Part shown: positions 24,210 to 54,866 of the stretch, piece by piece | Numbering within the stretch: the stretch's first letter is position 1 | How the letters are laid out: every line of letters starts with the position of its first letter | From: Haloparvum sedimenti | GTDB taxonomy: Archaea > Halobacteriota > Halobacteria > Halobacteriales > Haloferacaceae | Length of the DNA: 60,506 nucleotides | Assembly: GCF_001462205.1 (NCBI RefSeq) | Contig: NZ_LKIR01000143.1 | Span: 13,891 to 74,396, forward strand | Reading direction: 5' to 3' | Position numbers and translations under genes: made by a program | Notes under the pieces: model-generated | Database searches by the model: none | Seen by the model: only the letters and a program-made list of their open reading frames with translations | What the model was told of the DNA's origin: nothing

Positions 24210-24608
24210 GCGGTCGGCGCGCGCGAGGAACGCGCGCGAGGGAGGCGGCGGCGCGGCCGCATGCGGTGCGGTTTCGCGGCCGCGCCGTCGCCGAGGCTGG
24301 GGAGGCGTGAGGCTGCTGTGCGGTCGCGGCGCGGTTGCGGTGCGGGGCGGGGCGGAGCGGGGCGAGGTGGGACTGAAAGGGGCAGCCGGCTCGATCCGGC
24401 CCCGGCGCCGCAAGCACCGCAGCGGGCTGTGCGGAGAGCGAGGAGCGCAGCGCGTGCCGCGGCCGGTCGAGCCGGCTGGGGCTTTCTGGGTGTTGCTGTC
24501 CCGAACAGCAGGATCGACGGTAGTACCAGATCAGTAGTACGGAGAGCCGGCTGGGGCTTTCTGGGTGTTGCGGACCAGCACAGCAGGATCGACAGCAGTC
24601 ACAGAAAA
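24210..24608 (+). repeat. Dispersed structured repeat, copy A
   Basis: This intergenic element lies between the SnoaL-like gene and tgtA. Module order: a 5' hairpin GCGCGCG-AGGAA-CGCGCGC (24219-24237); a 17-bp stem with arms 24244-24260 and 24276-24292 and loop ATGCGGTGCGGTTTC; a G-rich core GAGGCTGGGGAGG with CTGCTGTGCGG and GTGGGACTGAAAGGGGC; then two tandem 3' units of 75 bases starting GAGCCGGCTGGGGCTTTCTG (24469 and 24544). The first unit contains a TGCTGT-CCCGA-ACAGCA hairpin. It ends near ACAGAAAACTC. No frame in it looks coding. Three further copies are in this window. Confidence 0.75.
24469..24608 (+). repeat. Tandem 75-bp units at the 3' end of repeat copy A
   Basis: Two units begin with the identical GAGCCGGCTGGGGCTTTCTG, at 24469 and 24544, and then carry CAGCAGGATCGAC. 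The first unit ends AGATCAGTAGTACGGA; the second is degenerate after the hairpin region. The unit is related to the 69-base units of copy D at 54656-54853. Confidence 0.8.
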
Positions 24609-39260: not shown

Positions 39261-39750
39261 CTTTCTGTCTCGGTTGCAGAACCTGGTGATCGGGACGGCA
39301 ACGTCCAGAGGTCCCCAGCCGGCACTCTGTACGATGTTTCTGAGTTTTCTTTTTTGTTGCAGCCTGCTGCTTGGACCAGCACCACCTCGAAAACCCAGCC
39401 GGCTGCCCCGTCCAGTCCTACCCACAGCCCCGCGACCGCACAGCCCCGCGACCGCACAGCCCCGCGACCGCACAGCAGCCTCGTCCCTCCCCAGCCTCGG
39501 CCGCGGGCCGGGCGCGGAACCGCAGCGCGGGACAAACCGCGTCCCGCTGGCCTCCAGCGTGCAGTAGCGCGCTGGAGACACCGCATCGCGGCCGGCCCGC
39601 GCCCTCCACCGAAAATCGGAGATTTTCGAGCAGCCGGCGTGCAGTCGCGCGCCGGAAATCGGAGATTTCCGAGCCGCCGTTCGCTCCGCACCGCGCTCCC
39701 GGCGACGCCGGCGACCTCGCGCGGTCGCGGCGACACAGGGTCGCCGCGGC
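39261..39750 (-). repeat. Dispersed structured repeat, copy B
   Basis: This copy lies on the minus strand between the hydrolase and a small membrane gene. Read on the minus strand it starts with a GCGGCGAC-CCTGT-GTCGCCGC hairpin (39727-39747). The extra hairpins of copy C follow: stems CCGGCG/CGCCGG (39634-39655), CGAAAATC/GATTTTCG (39610-39628) and CTCCAGCG/CGCTGGAG (39552-39577). Then comes the G-rich core GAGGCTGGGGAGG and three tandem 16-base units of TGTGCGGTCGCGGGGC. The 3' end has GCCGGCTGG units and CCGAGACAGAAAG (39261-39273). Confidence 0.75.
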
Positions 39751-41427: not shown

Positions 41428-41607
41428 GCACCGGCCGAGATTTGAACCGGAGAAAGACGGTCCGGGCGTTCCGTTGCGCCTCGCGGCGCCGGCCGCGGCC
41501 GGCGCTCCGCTCGCCGGACGGGTCCGGGCATGCGACTTTCAGGATTCAAATCTCTCTGGGAGATTTTTCTCACGTCGTTCGAAAAATGCACCGGCCGAGA
41601 TTTGAAC
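41428..41607 (-). repeat. tRNA-Gly trailing element with duplicated tRNA 3' end
   Basis: The 20 bases GCACCGGCCGAGATTTGAAC (the tRNA-Gly 3' end, read on the plus strand) occur in the tRNA at 41588-41607 and again at 41428-41447, spaced 160 bases apart. The segment between them is homologous to the corresponding segment of the tRNA-Lys element. In particular GCAACGGAA, CCGGA and CGTCT appear in the same order, at about 41449-41482 and 45200-45232. The layout is tRNA, linker, copy of tRNA 3' end, both times on the tRNA strand. Confidence 0.8.
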
Positions 41608-41657
41608 TCGGGTTGCAACCATGGCAAGGTTGCGTGATACCACTACACTACCGGTGC
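41587..41657 (-). tRNA. tRNA-Gly (GCC anticodon)
   Basis: Read on the minus strand the cloverleaf starts GCACCGG and ends CCGGTGC followed by the discriminator A. The anticodon stem CAACC/GGTTG encloses TTGCCAT, giving anticodon GCC (Gly). The T-loop is GGTTCAAATC-like. No CCA is encoded. The 3' end is duplicated 160 bases downstream. Confidence 0.95.
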
Positions 41658-41759
41658 GCTTCCTGTACCTGTACGTGGGTCGGTGTTCTACTTAAACCTG
41701 TCACATTCGGACGACGGCGTGGGGGACCGCCAGTCCGTTTCGATCACCGGGACGACGAC

Positions 41760-42740
41760 TCAACGACCGTCAGCAGCCGGAACCGCCGTGAGCCCGCGGA
41801 CCTCGCGGACGCCGACGGTGCGGTGGCGCCAGCCGTCCCCGGCGTCGACGCAGAGCGTCCCGGCGTCGGTCGCCGCGAGCGCCAGCCCGGGACCGTAGCC
41901 GACCGCCGCGACCGGGTCGGCGACCGGCAGCGACGCGGCGTCCCACTCGTCGGTCGAGAATTCCCCGCGCCGGCCCCGGTGAATCGAGAGATCCCCGCCG
42001 TCGTCGACCGCGAGCGCGTGGCCATCGCCGTCGGCCGCGACCGCCCGGAACCCCCCGTCGAGCGCGTCCATCCAGCCGTTACCGAGCCAGTAGAGCCCCG
42101 TCGCCGTCGCCGCGAGCGGGACGCCCGTCCCGGCCACGTCCCGGACCTTCGAGAGGCCGACGCGCTCCAGCGTGTCGCCCACGACGCGGTGGACGCCGTC
42201 CGCCGCGGCGACGAGGGGGCCGTCGACCGCGGTCGGCTCCTCGACGCGTCCGAGCCTCGTCCCGGCGGCGGTCTCCGCGACGTGGTCCGCCTCGGTCCCG
42301 ACCGCTGCTTCGGGGTCGACTCGGCGGACATCGCCGTCCGCGGTCGCCGCGACGAACGCCCCGTCGTGGACGCCGACCGCGGCCGTCGGACCGAGCCCCG
42401 TCGACGTGAACTCGAGGGAGGCGTCGGCGCGGCTCCTCGCGGGTGCGTCGGGGGCCTCCGCGCTCGACGGGAGTCGTGCGACCAGCAGGTCCTCCGCCGT
42501 CGCGAGCGCGAGGCGTCTCCGGGGTCGCTCGTTCGCGTCGGCGTCCGCCTTCGCGGGACCGCCGGCGACCGCCACGTCCCGCGCGTCCGCGCGCTCGGCG
42601 ATCCCGAACTCGCCGATCTTGTCGGCGGAGACGGCGACCCGGACGAGCCCCATCCCTGACGCGAGGTAGACGTCGGTCCGGCCGGCCGACCCGGCGTACA
42701 CGCGCTTCTCGGCCAGCGAGATGTCGTCCTCGGCGGGCAT
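41760..42740 (-). CDS. HVO_0234-type beta-propeller protein
   Basis: The 326-residue protein starts MPAEDDISLAEKRVYAGSAG. It consists of repeated strands of the propeller kind: RTDVYLASGMGLVRVAVS, LALATAEDLLVARLPSS, GAFVAATADGDVRRVD, GPLVAAADGVHRVVGD and GVPLAATATGLYWLGNGW. Aspartate-glycine turns close each blade. The name follows the haloarchaeal family pattern. A ligand or partner is not known. It is divergent from the DUF7119-type gene. Confidence 0.82.
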   Translation of the reverse strand: MPAEDDISLAEKRVYAGSAGRTDVYLASGMGLVRVAVSADKIGEFGIAERADARDVAVAGGPAKADADANERPRRRLALATAEDLLVARLPSSAEAPDAPARSRADASLEFTSTGLGPTAAVGVHDGAFVAATADGDVRRVDPEAAVGTEADHVAETAAGTRLGRVEEPTAVDGPLVAAADGVHRVVGDTLERVGLSKVRDVAGTGVPLAATATGLYWLGNGWMDALDGGFRAVAADGDGHALAVDDGGDLSIHRGRRGEFSTDEWDAASLPVADPVAAVGYGPGLALAATDAGTLCVDAGDGWRHRTVGVREVRGLTAVPAADGR

Positions 42741-42888
42741 CGTCGGCAGTGGGGCGGCGCCGGCCGAGAAGGTGTCGGTCGGCGACGGGAGCGCGGAGAG
42801 GTCGGTCCCTCGCGCGGGTCCGTCCGCGCAAGGGCCAGTACTTGCCCCCGTGCGAGGGACTTTTGCCGGCCGGCGTGCAGGTCGAGGT

Positions 42889-43545
42889 ATGAGCGAGGAG
42901 CCACCGTCGGAGCGGCACTCCCCGGTCGGCGAGCCGGTCGTCCGCGCCGACCCCGAGGTGACGGGCGAGCGTGCCGCCGAGGCGGTGGGGTTCGACCCGA
43001 CCGACCCCGACAGCGTCTCGGAGGCCGCCGACACCGTCGCCCGGTTCGCTGCGGGCGCCGTCGGCGGCGACGACCACGTCCTGATGCTCCGGGGCGCGGC
43101 CGCCTGCGCGGCGCTGGTCCGCGGCGAGGGGTCGTACAAGGCGGCCGCCGAGCGCGCGGGCGAGGCCGTCTCCGTCTCCTTCATCCGCAAGTGGGCGCGC
43201 GTCCACGACCTCCCACAGGCGATCCGTCGACACGTCGCCCGCGGTCACATCCCGCCAACCGCCGCCAAGCACATCGCGCGCGTCGGCGGCGACGACCGCT
43301 ACCTGCTCGCGTGGGCGGTGCTGGACGGCGACCTTACGGTTCGGGAGATCCGCTCCGCCGCCTCCGCCGTCAACGACGGCGCCGACGCCGAGGACGCGCT
43401 CCGCGAGGCGGGCGTCGTCCCCGGTCGGCTGACGCTGGACCTGCCGATCGCGGAGTACGTCGAACTCCGGCGCCGCGCCTCCATGCGGAACGAGGAGCCC
43501 GGCGCGGTCGTCGCCGACGCGCTGCGCGAGTACTTCTCCGAGTAG
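42889..43545 (+). CDS. DUF7119-like haloarchaeal protein with HTH-type core
   Basis: The 218-residue protein starts MSEEPPSERHSPVGEPVVRA. Its middle has LRGAAACAALVRGEGSYKAA, then RAGEAVSVSFIRKWARVHDL and HIPPTAAKHIARVGGDDRYL, a helix-rich region with the look of a ParB- or HTH-like domain. The C-terminal RLTLDLPIAEYVELRRRASM is ribbon-helix-helix-like. Assignment to DUF7119 is by pattern. Regulation or DNA binding is inference. The ATG follows a TATA-like TTTTGCCGG. Confidence 0.72.
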   Translation: MSEEPPSERHSPVGEPVVRADPEVTGERAAEAVGFDPTDPDSVSEAADTVARFAAGAVGGDDHVLMLRGAAACAALVRGEGSYKAAAERAGEAVSVSFIRKWARVHDLPQAIRRHVARGHIPPTAAKHIARVGGDDRYLLAWAVLDGDLTVREIRSAASAVNDGADAEDALREAGVVPGRLTLDLPIAEYVELRRRASMRNEEPGAVVADALREYFSE

Positions 43546-43574
43546 CGGAGCCGGAGCGGGATACCGGACCCGGG

Positions 43575-44870
43575 CTACGCGCTCAGGAATCGCCGCGCCG
43601 TCGCCCCGATCGTCTCGCGTGCCTTCTCGACTTCGACCCACGCGACCGTCTCGTTGGGGAAGTGCGCCTCCGCGATCGTCCCCGGCCCGAACAGCACGGT
43701 CGGGATCCCCTCGGCCACGTAATGGCGCGAATCGGCGCCGTAGGTCGCTCCCCGCGGCTCCGTCTCCGGGAGCCCGGTTTCTTCCATCGCGGCCCGCAGA
43801 TCCGCGACGACCGGCTCGTCGGGGTCGACCTCGGCCGGCTCGAACTGGACCGAGAACCGCTCGAACCGCGGCGGATGCTCGTCGAGCCACGGGTCGTCCG
43901 CGGTCGCGGCCGCCAGCCGCTCGCGGAACCGCTCCTCGACCGCCGCGACCGTCTCGCCGGGCGCGACGCCGATCCGGAACTCCGCGGACAGCGTTGCCGG
44001 GACCGTCGACGCCCACGACCCCGCCTCGACGCGCCCGCAGACCACGGGCCACGCGACCGGGAACCGGTCGTAGAGGGGGTGGGTCACCGTCCGGTTGCGT
44101 TCGGCCTCGAGGTCCATGAAGGACTCCCGGACCGCCTCGAAGCGCGGGAGCACGTCCTCGCCGACCCACCGCGTCGCGGCGTGGGCGCTCCGCCCGTCGA
44201 GTTCCAGTCGGGCCATCAGGCTCCCCTCCGTGGCCACCACCGGCCGGAGGTCCGTCGGCTCCGCGACCACCGCGGCGTCGCGCTCGAAGGGGTACGGGTT
44301 CGCGAGCGCCGCGGTCGCGGCGCCGTAGCCGCCGTCCTCCTCGCCGGCGACGGCCTCGACCACGACCCGGCCGTCGAGGTCGGCCTCATCCGCCTCCGCC
44401 GCCGCGCGGAGGTCGAGCGCGGCGCCCACGCAGGCCGCGAGTCCCGACTTCATGTCGGCCGCGCCGCGGGCGGTCAGCGTCTCCTCCCCGGAGCGCGCTC
44501 CGTCCCCGTCCGGCCCGCCGCGTCTCACAGCCTCGAACGGCTCCGTCTCCCACTCCGACCGCTCGACGGGCACCACGTCGAGGTGGCCGTTCAACAGGAG
44601 CGTGGGATACGCGTCGTCGCCGTCGAGGGTCGCGTCGCCGAACGCCAGCGCGCCCGCCACGCTCCGGCGCCCCTCGGCGTCGAGCGCGTCGGGGTCGTCC
44701 GGGAACGAGGGGTGGTCGGCGAGCAGCGCCGGGTCGGCGTCCCACGCGTACGTCTCGAACCCGAGCGCGTCGAACCGCTCGCGGACCCACGCGGCCGCGG
44801 GGGCCTCCGCACCCGCGGTCGTCGCGAAGCCGCAGAGTCGGTCGGTGAACGCCCGCAGATCGAACTCCAT
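43575..44870 (-). CDS. M20 family peptidase/deacylase (ArgE/DapE type)
   Basis: The 431-residue protein starts MEFDLRAFTDRLCGFATTAG. Metal-binding motifs are in NGHLDVVPVERSEWETEPFE (His and Asp), TARGAADMKSGLAACVG (Asp), VVEAVAGEEDGGYGAAT (Glu-Glu) and the late ADSRHYVAEGIPTVLFGP (His). These give a two-zinc amidohydrolase. The fold has a lid insertion near residues 200-310. Typical substrates are N-acyl amino acids; ArgE/DapE-type specificity is not resolved by sequence. It converges on the DUF7119-like gene with 29 bases between. Confidence 0.9.
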   Translation of the reverse strand: MEFDLRAFTDRLCGFATTAGAEAPAAAWVRERFDALGFETYAWDADPALLADHPSFPDDPDALDAEGRRSVAGALAFGDATLDGDDAYPTLLLNGHLDVVPVERSEWETEPFEAVRRGGPDGDGARSGEETLTARGAADMKSGLAACVGAALDLRAAAEADEADLDGRVVVEAVAGEEDGGYGAATAALANPYPFERDAAVVAEPTDLRPVVATEGSLMARLELDGRSAHAATRWVGEDVLPRFEAVRESFMDLEAERNRTVTHPLYDRFPVAWPVVCGRVEAGSWASTVPATLSAEFRIGVAPGETVAAVEERFRERLAAATADDPWLDEHPPRFERFSVQFEPAEVDPDEPVVADLRAAMEETGLPETEPRGATYGADSRHYVAEGIPTVLFGPGTIAEAHFPNETVAWVEVEKARETIGATARRFLSA

Positions 44871-45025
44871 AATCGAGGGTCTCGGGAGGGGCGAATAACG
44901 GTTGGGGTCGGCGGTTCGGAACCGAGCAACATCACCGGGTTGGACGATGGGCGGTCCGGTGCCGAGGCCGGCGCCGGCCGGGTTTTGTAAACGCTTATGC
45001 GTGCGCTGACGCAACCGAGAGGTGA

Positions 45026-45099
45026 GGGCCGGTAGCTCAGTTAGGGAGAGCGTCCGGCTTTTAACCGGACGGTCGGGGGTTCGAATCCCTCCCGGCCCG
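45026..45099 (+). tRNA. tRNA-Lys (TTT anticodon)
   Basis: The cloverleaf starts GGGCCGG and ends CCGGCCC with discriminator G. The anticodon stem TCCGG/CCGGA encloses CTTTTAA, giving TTT (Lys). The T-arm is GGTTCGAATCC. A TATA-like AAACGCTTATGCG lies about 30 bases upstream. No CCA is encoded. Its 3' end is repeated 155 bases downstream. Confidence 0.95.
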
Positions 45100-45256
45100 T
45101 GCAGCGAGACGATCAGCACCGCTGAGCGTCGAGCGAACCGGCAGGAAGGGTTCGAGCCCGGAGAGTCGCAGCCGGAAACCGTCCGTCGAGCTGTGCGGGG
45201 AGACGCAACGGAAGTCCGGAACGTCTCTCCTCGGTTCGAATCCCTCCCGGCCCGTG
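45078..45256 (+). repeat. tRNA-Lys trailing element with duplicated tRNA 3' end
   Basis: Twenty-four bases, from GGTTCGAATCCC through CCCGTG, occur at 45078-45101 (T-arm, acceptor and two following bases of the tRNA) and again at 45233-45256. The 131-base linker contains AGTCGCA, CCGTCCG-CGAGC and CGCAACGGAA...CGTCT in the order seen at the tRNA-Gly element. The rest of the gap to 45369 holds no other feature that I can see. Confidence 0.8.
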
Positions 45257-48169: not shown

Positions 48170-48412
48170 GCGGTCGGCGCGCGCGAGGAACGCGCGCGAG
48201 GTCGCCGGCACGCTACTGCACGCCGGCTGCTCGAAAATCTCCGATTTTCGGTGGAGGCGGCGGGCGCGGCCGCCTGCTGTGCGGTTTCGCGGCCGCGCCG
48301 CCGCCGAGGCTGGGGAGGTGCGAGGCTGCGGTGCGGTTGCGGTGGGTGGGACTGAACGTGGCTTTCGAGGTGGTGCTGTCCCGAACAGCAGCGTCCGCGG
48401 CAGACACGGAAC
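48170..48412 (+). repeat. Dispersed structured repeat, copy C
   Basis: The copy lies between the PadR-like gene and the DJ-1 gene. It has the 5' hairpin GCGCGCG-AGGAA-CGCGCGC, a GCCGGC/GCCGGC hairpin with CGCTACTGCA in the loop (48204-48227), and CGAAAATC/GATTTTCG (48232-48250). A 17-bp stem follows, with arms 48256-48273 (one bulged G) and 48289-48305, then the core GAGGCTGGGGAGG and GTGGGACTGAA. A single 3' unit has TGCTGT-CCCGA-ACAGCA. No tandem 3' units are present. Confidence 0.75.
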
Positions 48413-54419: not shown

Positions 54420-54866
54420 GCGGTCGGCGCGCGCGAGAAACGCGCGCGAGGGAGCCCACAGCCGCGGTCGCGCCGCGGTGCAGTGCGGTCGCGCGACCGC
54501 GGCTGTGGCGAGGTTGGGGAGGCGAGAGGCTGCTGTGCGGTTGCGGTGCGGGGTGGGACTGAAAGGGGCAGCCGGCTCGGTCCGGCCCCGACGACGCAAG
54601 CACTCGCGCCGGGCGGTGTTGAGAGGCGCGAGCGCGCAGCGAGGCGCGGCCGGTCGAGCCGGCTGGGGCTTTCTGGACGTTGCTGTCACGATCAGCAGGA
54701 TCAGCACTAGATCAGTAGTACGGAGAGCCGGCTGGGGCTTTCTGGACGTTGCTGTCACGATCAGCAGGATCAGCACTAGATCAGTAGTACGGAGAGCCGG
54801 CTGGGGCTTTCTGGACGTTTCTGACCCACGTAGCAGGGTCCATAGCCGAGACAGAAATTTCGAGAC
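54420..54866 (+). repeat. Dispersed structured repeat, copy D
   Basis: The copy lies between thiD and nurA. The 5' hairpin is GCGCGCG-AGAAA-CGCGCGC. A 17-bp stem has arms CACAGCCGCGGTCGCGC (54457-54473) and GCGCGACCGCGGCTGTG (54491-54507), with a 17-base loop. The core is GAGGTTGGGGAGG, then CTGCTGTGCGG and GGTGGGACTGAAAGGGGC. Three 3' units start GAGCCGGCTGGGGCTTTCTG at 54656, 54725 and 54794. The end has GAGACAGAAATTTCGAGAC. Confidence 0.78.
54656..54853 (+). repeat. Tandem 69-bp units at the 3' end of repeat copy D
   Basis: Two units are identical over 69 bases, each beginning GAGCCGGCTGGGGCTTTCTG and including TGCTGTCACGATCAGCAGGA and ending AGATCAGTAGTACGGA. A third unit, starting at 54794, diverges after GGACGTT. 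The units are related to those of copy A at 24469 and 24544, though 6 bases shorter. Confidence 0.88.

Follow-up and report, generated by a model that had tools for sequence, protein, structure and literature searches.

The window analysed here is a 60,506-nt stretch of the genome of the haloarchaeon Haloparvum sedimenti (assembly GCF_001462205.1, contig NZ_LKIR01000143.1, positions 13,891 to 74,396). It contains two tRNA genes, tRNA-Gly(GCC) and tRNA-Lys(TTT), each followed by a unit of ~140-160 nt that consists of a spacer hairpin, an inverted copy of the tRNA T-arm, a core of the form AGTCGCAGCCCGG..CCCGGACCGTCT and a copy of the tRNA 3′ end. The tail copy spans the tRNA from the T-loop to the discriminator base. 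One full unit begins and ends in a T-loop, the tail being followed by the spacer hairpin, the inverted T-arm, the core hairpin and the next tail copy. In the following list the spacers and left arms were read from the sequence, and the basis of the other features is given in parentheses.

41587..41657, minus strand: tRNA-Gly(GCC), anchor gene of the first unit (ARAGORN; Rfam tRNA, 65 bits)
41555..41586, minus strand: spacer of the first unit, with a T-rich start and a small hairpin
41542..41554, minus strand: left arm of the first unit, GAGATTTGAATCC, an inverted copy of the tRNA T-arm
41455..41537, minus strand: core hairpin of the first unit, AGTCGCA..CGTCT family, long-loop variant (covariance model R1, 61.6 bits; covariation)
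41428..41447, minus strand: copy of the tRNA-Gly 3′ end, GTTCAAATCTCGGCCGGTGC (20/20 identical to the tRNA)
45026..45099, plus strand: tRNA-Lys(TTT), anchor gene of the second unit (ARAGORN; Rfam tRNA, 71 bits)
45100..45147, plus strand: spacer of the second unit
45148..45158, plus strand: left arm of the second unit, GGGTTCGAGCC, an inverted T-arm copy (RNA folding also pairs this arm with the right copy)
45164..45226, plus strand: core hairpin of the second unit, AGTCGCA..CGTCT family (R1, 79.9 bits)
45233..45256, plus strand: copy of the tRNA-Lys 3′ end, GGTTCGAATCCCTCCCGGCCCGTG (24/24 identical to the gene plus the next two bases)

Both tail duplications had been claimed by an earlier reading made from the letters of the DNA (hereafter the sequence-only reading), and both proved to be exact, over 20 nt for tRNA-Gly and 24 nt for tRNA-Lys. 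The likeness that it had noticed between the two linkers was borne out as well: AGTCGCA..CCGTCCG occurs only at these two sites of the window, 2 versus 0.17 expected. The R1 scores of 61.6 (Gly) and 79.9 bits (Lys) are those of members of the model's own training set, which included both linkers, the Gly one trimmed. Left of the core, both linkers carry the reverse complement of the T-arm, which that reading had not mentioned, and the inverted arm, the core and the tail copy therefore make up one long hairpin, as is seen in the RNA fold of the Lys copy. The tRNA-Gly(GCC) genes of the genome containing the window (G000) differ in this respect, the window copy having a unit and the second gene (L107) none. 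The Gly unit of the window lies before prs, and no tRNA was found at the prs-upstream sites of 29 other genomes of the family.

Over all loci, 191 units were extracted, nearly all with bodies of 65-172 nt. The tail copy is identical to the tRNA tail in 127 of them, and 175 of 189 inverted left arms match at 8 or more of 11 positions, compared with 17 of 189 after shuffling. The spacers fold well (median z -3.0), and in the unit nearest to the tRNA the core begins about 33-104 nt past that gene. Arrays of five or more units occur (e.g., L169), and near-identical duplicates are common among tandem units.

The cores make up a structured family in which covariation is strong. A short outer helix, AGTCG/CGTCT, has a fixed T-T mismatch; further in come an uneven internal loop, a CCGG/CCGG helix and another internal loop, and the tip is variable. 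Standard pairs fill 98.0% and 99.6% of the cells in alignments of 63 and 84 copies, respectively, and double-sided changes occupy 98 cells in each; shuffles gave 29 and 25 such cells, and slid controls no more than 12. Fitting the alignments to the structure biases them in its favour, but the variable pairs beside the core (A-T, G-C, C-G, T-A) are evident in the raw sequences too. Further core types, such as GGTCGCGCGCAGCG..GCACGTCC and GGGAGCGGGAGG.., occupy the same places. The tiny coding part that the sequence-only reading had thought possible was dropped, since unit lengths favour none of the three frames (61/60/55) and in 40 of 176 units no frame is open throughout. A second, shorter class of repeat was observed downstream of the regular unit behind tRNA-Gly(TCC) in L300, L304, L309 and L290, where the hairpin precedes a copy of no more than the final ~13 nt of the tRNA (CCCGGCCGGCGCA).

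A 24-nt pattern from the right half of the linkers, with up to three mismatches allowed, matched at 15 places in G000, and the reversed control at none; most of the 15 lie in dispersed repeats away from tRNA genes, often two or three consecutively. Of 171 genomes of the family, 84 contained matches to a first covariance model built from the copies, and the best-scoring loci lie almost all directly behind tRNA genes. When named genomes were scanned for an exact pattern, 33 loci, mostly with a matching tRNA tail, came up in Halorubrum, Halobellus, Haloplanus, Halostagnicola, Halorientalis, Salinarchaeum, Haloglomus, Halorussus and other genera. With a second covariance model (E ≤ 1e-5), 185 of 392 Halobacteria genomes from 55 of 86 genera were positive, and in a phylum-wide sample all of the matches listed were in Halobacteria. 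When the window region and nine loci were compared with Rfam 15, no family emerged other than tRNAs, chance-level matches and an unrelated S15 leader, and the literature searched contained no account of such units.

Among 141 distinct core copies, 115 directly follow a tRNA on the same strand and match its tail (at least 16 of the last 20 tRNA nt), and these tRNAs comprise 27 isoacceptors. A T-arm-like right arm that falls below this criterion is present in seven copies, while 19 have neither a matching tail nor such an arm and lie mostly in dispersed repeats. As these loci had been chosen by a model, the tRNA genes of three genomes were surveyed to avoid that bias. A copy of the gene's own tail was present within 900 nt downstream in 6 of 44 tRNAs in G000, 15 of 45 in G283 and 14 of 46 in G118, and upstream in none of the tRNAs of these genomes. 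The tails of other tRNAs, used as a control, were found in 0 of 369, 1 of 385 and 2 of 385 trials (3 of 1139). A tandem pair of Asp genes shares one unit in G000 and in G118, and the number of independent cases is therefore slightly lower. The majority of tRNA genes in the surveyed genomes have no unit.

The core has a second habitat in dispersed palindromic repeats. Two copies of one such repeat lie in the window, both without a core.

24369..24486, plus strand: dispersed palindromic repeat GGGACTGAAAGGGGC..GGGGCTTTC, without core insertion (alignment)
54555..54673, plus strand: second copy of this repeat, without core insertion (alignment)

The copies in L010 and L012 likewise lack the core, which related copies elsewhere in G000 carry. 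In L011, by alignment, ~101 nt with the core are cleanly inserted between GACGACGC and AAGCACCGCAG, and the target is not duplicated; the ends of this insertion, as read from the alignment, form an inverted match of only about 7/9. Because the core also resides inside palindromic repeats unconnected with tRNA genes, the element is not confined to the latter. That a single kind of element stands behind various tRNAs and has the end of each is supported by the 115 copies at 27 isoacceptors; its restriction to tRNAs is not. The sequence-only reading had itself named the linker far from tRNA genes without duplicated ends as a refutation, and this holds in part, most core copies of G000 being in dispersed repeats away from tRNA genes.

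Turnover of the units is seen between species. At tRNA-Leu(TAA) of Halorubrum, 23 of 30 loci have at least one exact tail copy, and the set of units differs in most species. In alignments with an orthologous flank on at least one side, the tRNA-Gly(TCC) site is empty in L299 and occupied in L300, L304, L309 and L290, and one unit stands against two in the pairs L284/L282 and L268/L267. In the latter pair the spacer and the flank are common and the core is different. Inverted cores were found in L266 and L283, and the oriented motif of the cores was forward in 68 cases and reversed in 2. Two further sites were noticed in Halorubrum. In L090/L045 (Halorubrum sp. CSM-61), at about position 1781 of L090, a core copy is fused to the anticodon-to-T-loop part of tRNA-Gly(TCC), beside AT-rich DNA with small reading frames that by eye resemble HTH and PemK-like proteins; the junction probably arose by a deletion or an inversion at the end of an integrated element. 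In L080 (Halorubrum halodurans), a reading frame judged by eye to be transposase-like lies within ~1.5 kb upstream of the core, in an insertion of ~1 kb in the spacer of a tRNA-Gly(CCC) unit.

Several known systems invite comparison. The small mobile repeats SMR-A and SMR-B of Haloquadratum walsbyi are gene-less elements of ~80-110 bp with inverted ends that insert in palindromes without target duplication and whose mobilisation is unknown, and the name SwitchRepeats has been given to sites with repeats of two kinds or with a single repeat in either orientation (PMC3119063). The units described here are likewise short and without coding capacity, the ~101-nt core insertion into a palindrome lacks a target duplication, and switch-type sites occur at tRNA-Leu and tRNA-Gly. 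However, the tRNA units duplicate the tRNA tail and their inverted arms match the tRNA, whereas small mobile repeats were described in IS605-type transposons and palindrome-associated elements rather than behind tRNA genes (PMC3119063), and neither tail copying nor tRNA-matching arms were part of that description, on which our comparison is based. Archaeal integrons resemble the units in their arrays at a fixed anchor with the boundary at a conserved short site, and their attC sites in being imperfect folded hairpins with two paired boxes, unpaired spacers and a variable tip (PMC9668308). Unlike integron cassettes, the units have no cassette genes, their anchor is a tRNA gene instead of attI and their arms copy that tRNA; the outer boxes AGTCG/CGTCT with the invariant T-T mismatch depart from the attC consensus GTTRRRY/RYYYAAC. 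The GTAG- and CGTC-tagged repetitive extragenic palindromes are also short dispersed hairpins, possibly mobilised as single-stranded DNA (PMC3733652), and the core of the units ends in CGTC. Those palindromes, though, have been reported in bacteria, measure 20-40 bp, have an unpaired tag and show neither a tRNA link nor a tail copy (PMC3733652), whereas the CGTC of the unit belongs to the paired outer helix. Finally, proviruses and other integrative elements that target tRNA genes by a tyrosine recombinase duplicate the 3′ end of the gene used, yet they encode an integrase and span kilobases of genes (PMC8371274).

In appearance the units are a little-known class of mobile DNA, which would acquire the end of the tRNA gene that it joins. 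That the two units of the window are copies of mobile hairpin cassettes, gene-less and transposase-free, which haloarchaea carry at the 3′ flanks of tRNA genes, is a reading to which we lend about as much credence as doubt; the nearest known parallel to such cassettes is best seen in the small mobile repeats of Haloquadratum. In its favour are the spread of the family in Halobacteria, the conserved core structure, the link to tRNAs, the whole-unit differences, core swaps and core inversions at orthologous sites, and the clean insertion of the core in other palindromes. On this reading the conserved T-loop sequence TTCRAAT would serve as the exchange point, and the folded hairpin would be recognised by an enzyme supplied in trans. 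With the junction inside the T-loop of the target, the target's tail would land behind the core; the left arm might then be matched to the new target by repair within the near-palindrome, or else be copied from it. A more specific version, tentative and rather doubtful at present, is a tRNA-anchored system in which a recombinase, acting in trans on folded single-stranded DNA, would capture and excise gene-less hairpin cassettes at the T-loop and also swap and invert them, each insertion thereby taking the tail of its target.

A number of observations weigh against mobile cassettes. No recombinase or transposase could be tied to the units, although no systematic search for genes around the arrays was made, and scans of plasmids, phages and viral contigs revealed no circular or mobile form. 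Distant blastn searches of the plasmid and phage collections returned no plasmid match and only chance-like matches to Streptomyces phages, and among the viral contigs none had the strict pattern and 12 had a loose one, none of these exceeding 23.1 bits with the model. A partner transposon, as for miniature inverted-repeat transposable elements, was absent from the same plasmid, phage and viral scans, transposon libraries not having been searched. Spacers are shared between units at different tRNAs within a genome no more than between units of different genomes, which gives no sign of recent transfer from one tRNA to another inside a genome; ordinary recombination between related strains, at one and the same tRNA, could account for much of the turnover. 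The orientation of the cores (68:2) is also explicable by a function as RNA, and the sense strand gives the better fold of the spacer hairpin, above all when RNA energies are used.

The last two points lead to an alternative that we consider unlikely, namely, that the units are transcribed with the tRNA and that the hairpin and the tRNA 3′ half act as RNA, for instance in trailer processing or termination, as a small RNA or as a substrate of tRNase Z or CCA addition, the arms tracking the tRNA because pairing with its tail, or mimicry of it, would be required of the RNA. Every tRNA-linked copy lies on the tRNA strand, and the cores are oriented 68:2; arm, core and arm fold far better than shuffles (median z -4.2), spacer hairpins prefer the sense strand (121 vs 32), and in the arms G-T exceeds A-C (74 vs 36). 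In the core alignments, however, G-T or A-C cells make up about 1 percent or less, so that G-U intermediates are few, GNRA tetraloops are at chance level, UNCG loops are not enriched and the main hairpin folds slightly better antisense. Pair counts and folding by strand point in both directions. Tips with a GNA triloop, a motif that forms very stable mini-hairpins in DNA, were present in 162 of 175 units versus 82 after shuffling, which we count for the DNA level, although the conserved core sequence CCGGAACGG contributes part of this number. An RNA element is also disfavoured by the speed with which unrelated cores replace each other at a site, by the many tRNA genes without a unit and by the core copies in repeats away from tRNAs. 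A guide-RNA arrangement with a scaffold and a 20-nt guide, as in the omega RNA of TnpB, was considered and set aside, as the guide would be masked by the left arm.

Quite unlikely, too, is a purely passive product, in which template switching and hairpin repair are set off by the T-arm palindromes and the resulting repeats are shuffled through homologous recombination between strains, without a dedicated enzyme. Inversion between inverted arms and the correction of one arm by the other are known outcomes at quasi-palindromes, and such an origin would suit a turnover that takes place mainly at the same tRNA between related species, as well as the near-identity of many tandem units. It accounts poorly for a core whose sequence is conserved and covaries across many genera, and which is found at 27 isoacceptors and as a clean insertion in unrelated repeats, since the repeated import of one hairpin is not expected from random template switching. 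We regard it as highly improbable that each unit is the attachment-site scar of an integrase-bearing provirus or plasmid that once used the tRNA, even though tRNA 3′ ends are classical targets and partial copies of a tRNA are left behind by integrase elements of haloarchaea (PMC3119063, PMC8371274). Integrase-like reading frames do occur behind tRNA-Gly(TCC) in L294 and L297, the protein of L297 matching PF00589. Against scars stand the distance of about 33-104 nt between the tRNA and the nearest core, the narrow size range of the unit bodies, the single conserved core that serves many tRNAs and the structure of a genuine element. In the one case examined, an 8.1-kb element with an integrase-like reading frame at tRNA-Gly(TCC) of G118 (L318), the right junction repeats ~48 nt of the tRNA, starting at the anticodon arm, and lacks a hairpin core; the hairpin array stands displaced beyond that junction. 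The units thus differ in kind from this ordinary attachment site, which is longer and coreless, and the larger integrase element that the sequence-only reading had proposed to look for is not supported as their origin.

About 14 to 33 percent of the tRNA genes in the three surveyed genomes have a tail copy, and about half of the sampled Halobacteria genomes have the commonest core. If the units move, they would constitute a mobile class whose ends are rewritten to fit the target, with a bearing on the rise of tRNA genes as common integration sites and on target switching by integrases. A tRNA-anchored cassette system, if real, would amount to an integron-like platform on tRNA genes throughout the haloarchaea. 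Should the units instead act as RNA, they would represent a widespread and hitherto undescribed RNA attached to tRNA transcripts. The tail copies mimic the attachment sites of proviruses and thereby complicate annotation.

The dispersed repeats of the second habitat belong to a larger palindromic repeat, GAGGCTGGGGAGG..GTGGGACTGAAAGGGGC..GGGGCTTTC, which occupies 24293-24560 and 54420-54840 of the window and recurs at many sites of the genome, with fragments near 39423-39690 and 48213-48330. The scanned copies had no match in Rfam. Its ends, GTGGGACTGAA..GGGGCTTTC, also occur in another genus (L052), and its inner part is modular. At 54665-54815 the repeat end GGAGAGCCGGCTGGGGCTTTCTGGACG.. is present in three tandem copies with a period of 69, and beside the first-named fragment a 16-bp tandem unit extends over 39423-39476, where 22-nt copies of CACAGCCCCGCGACCGCACAGC stand in register at 39423, 39439 and 39455.

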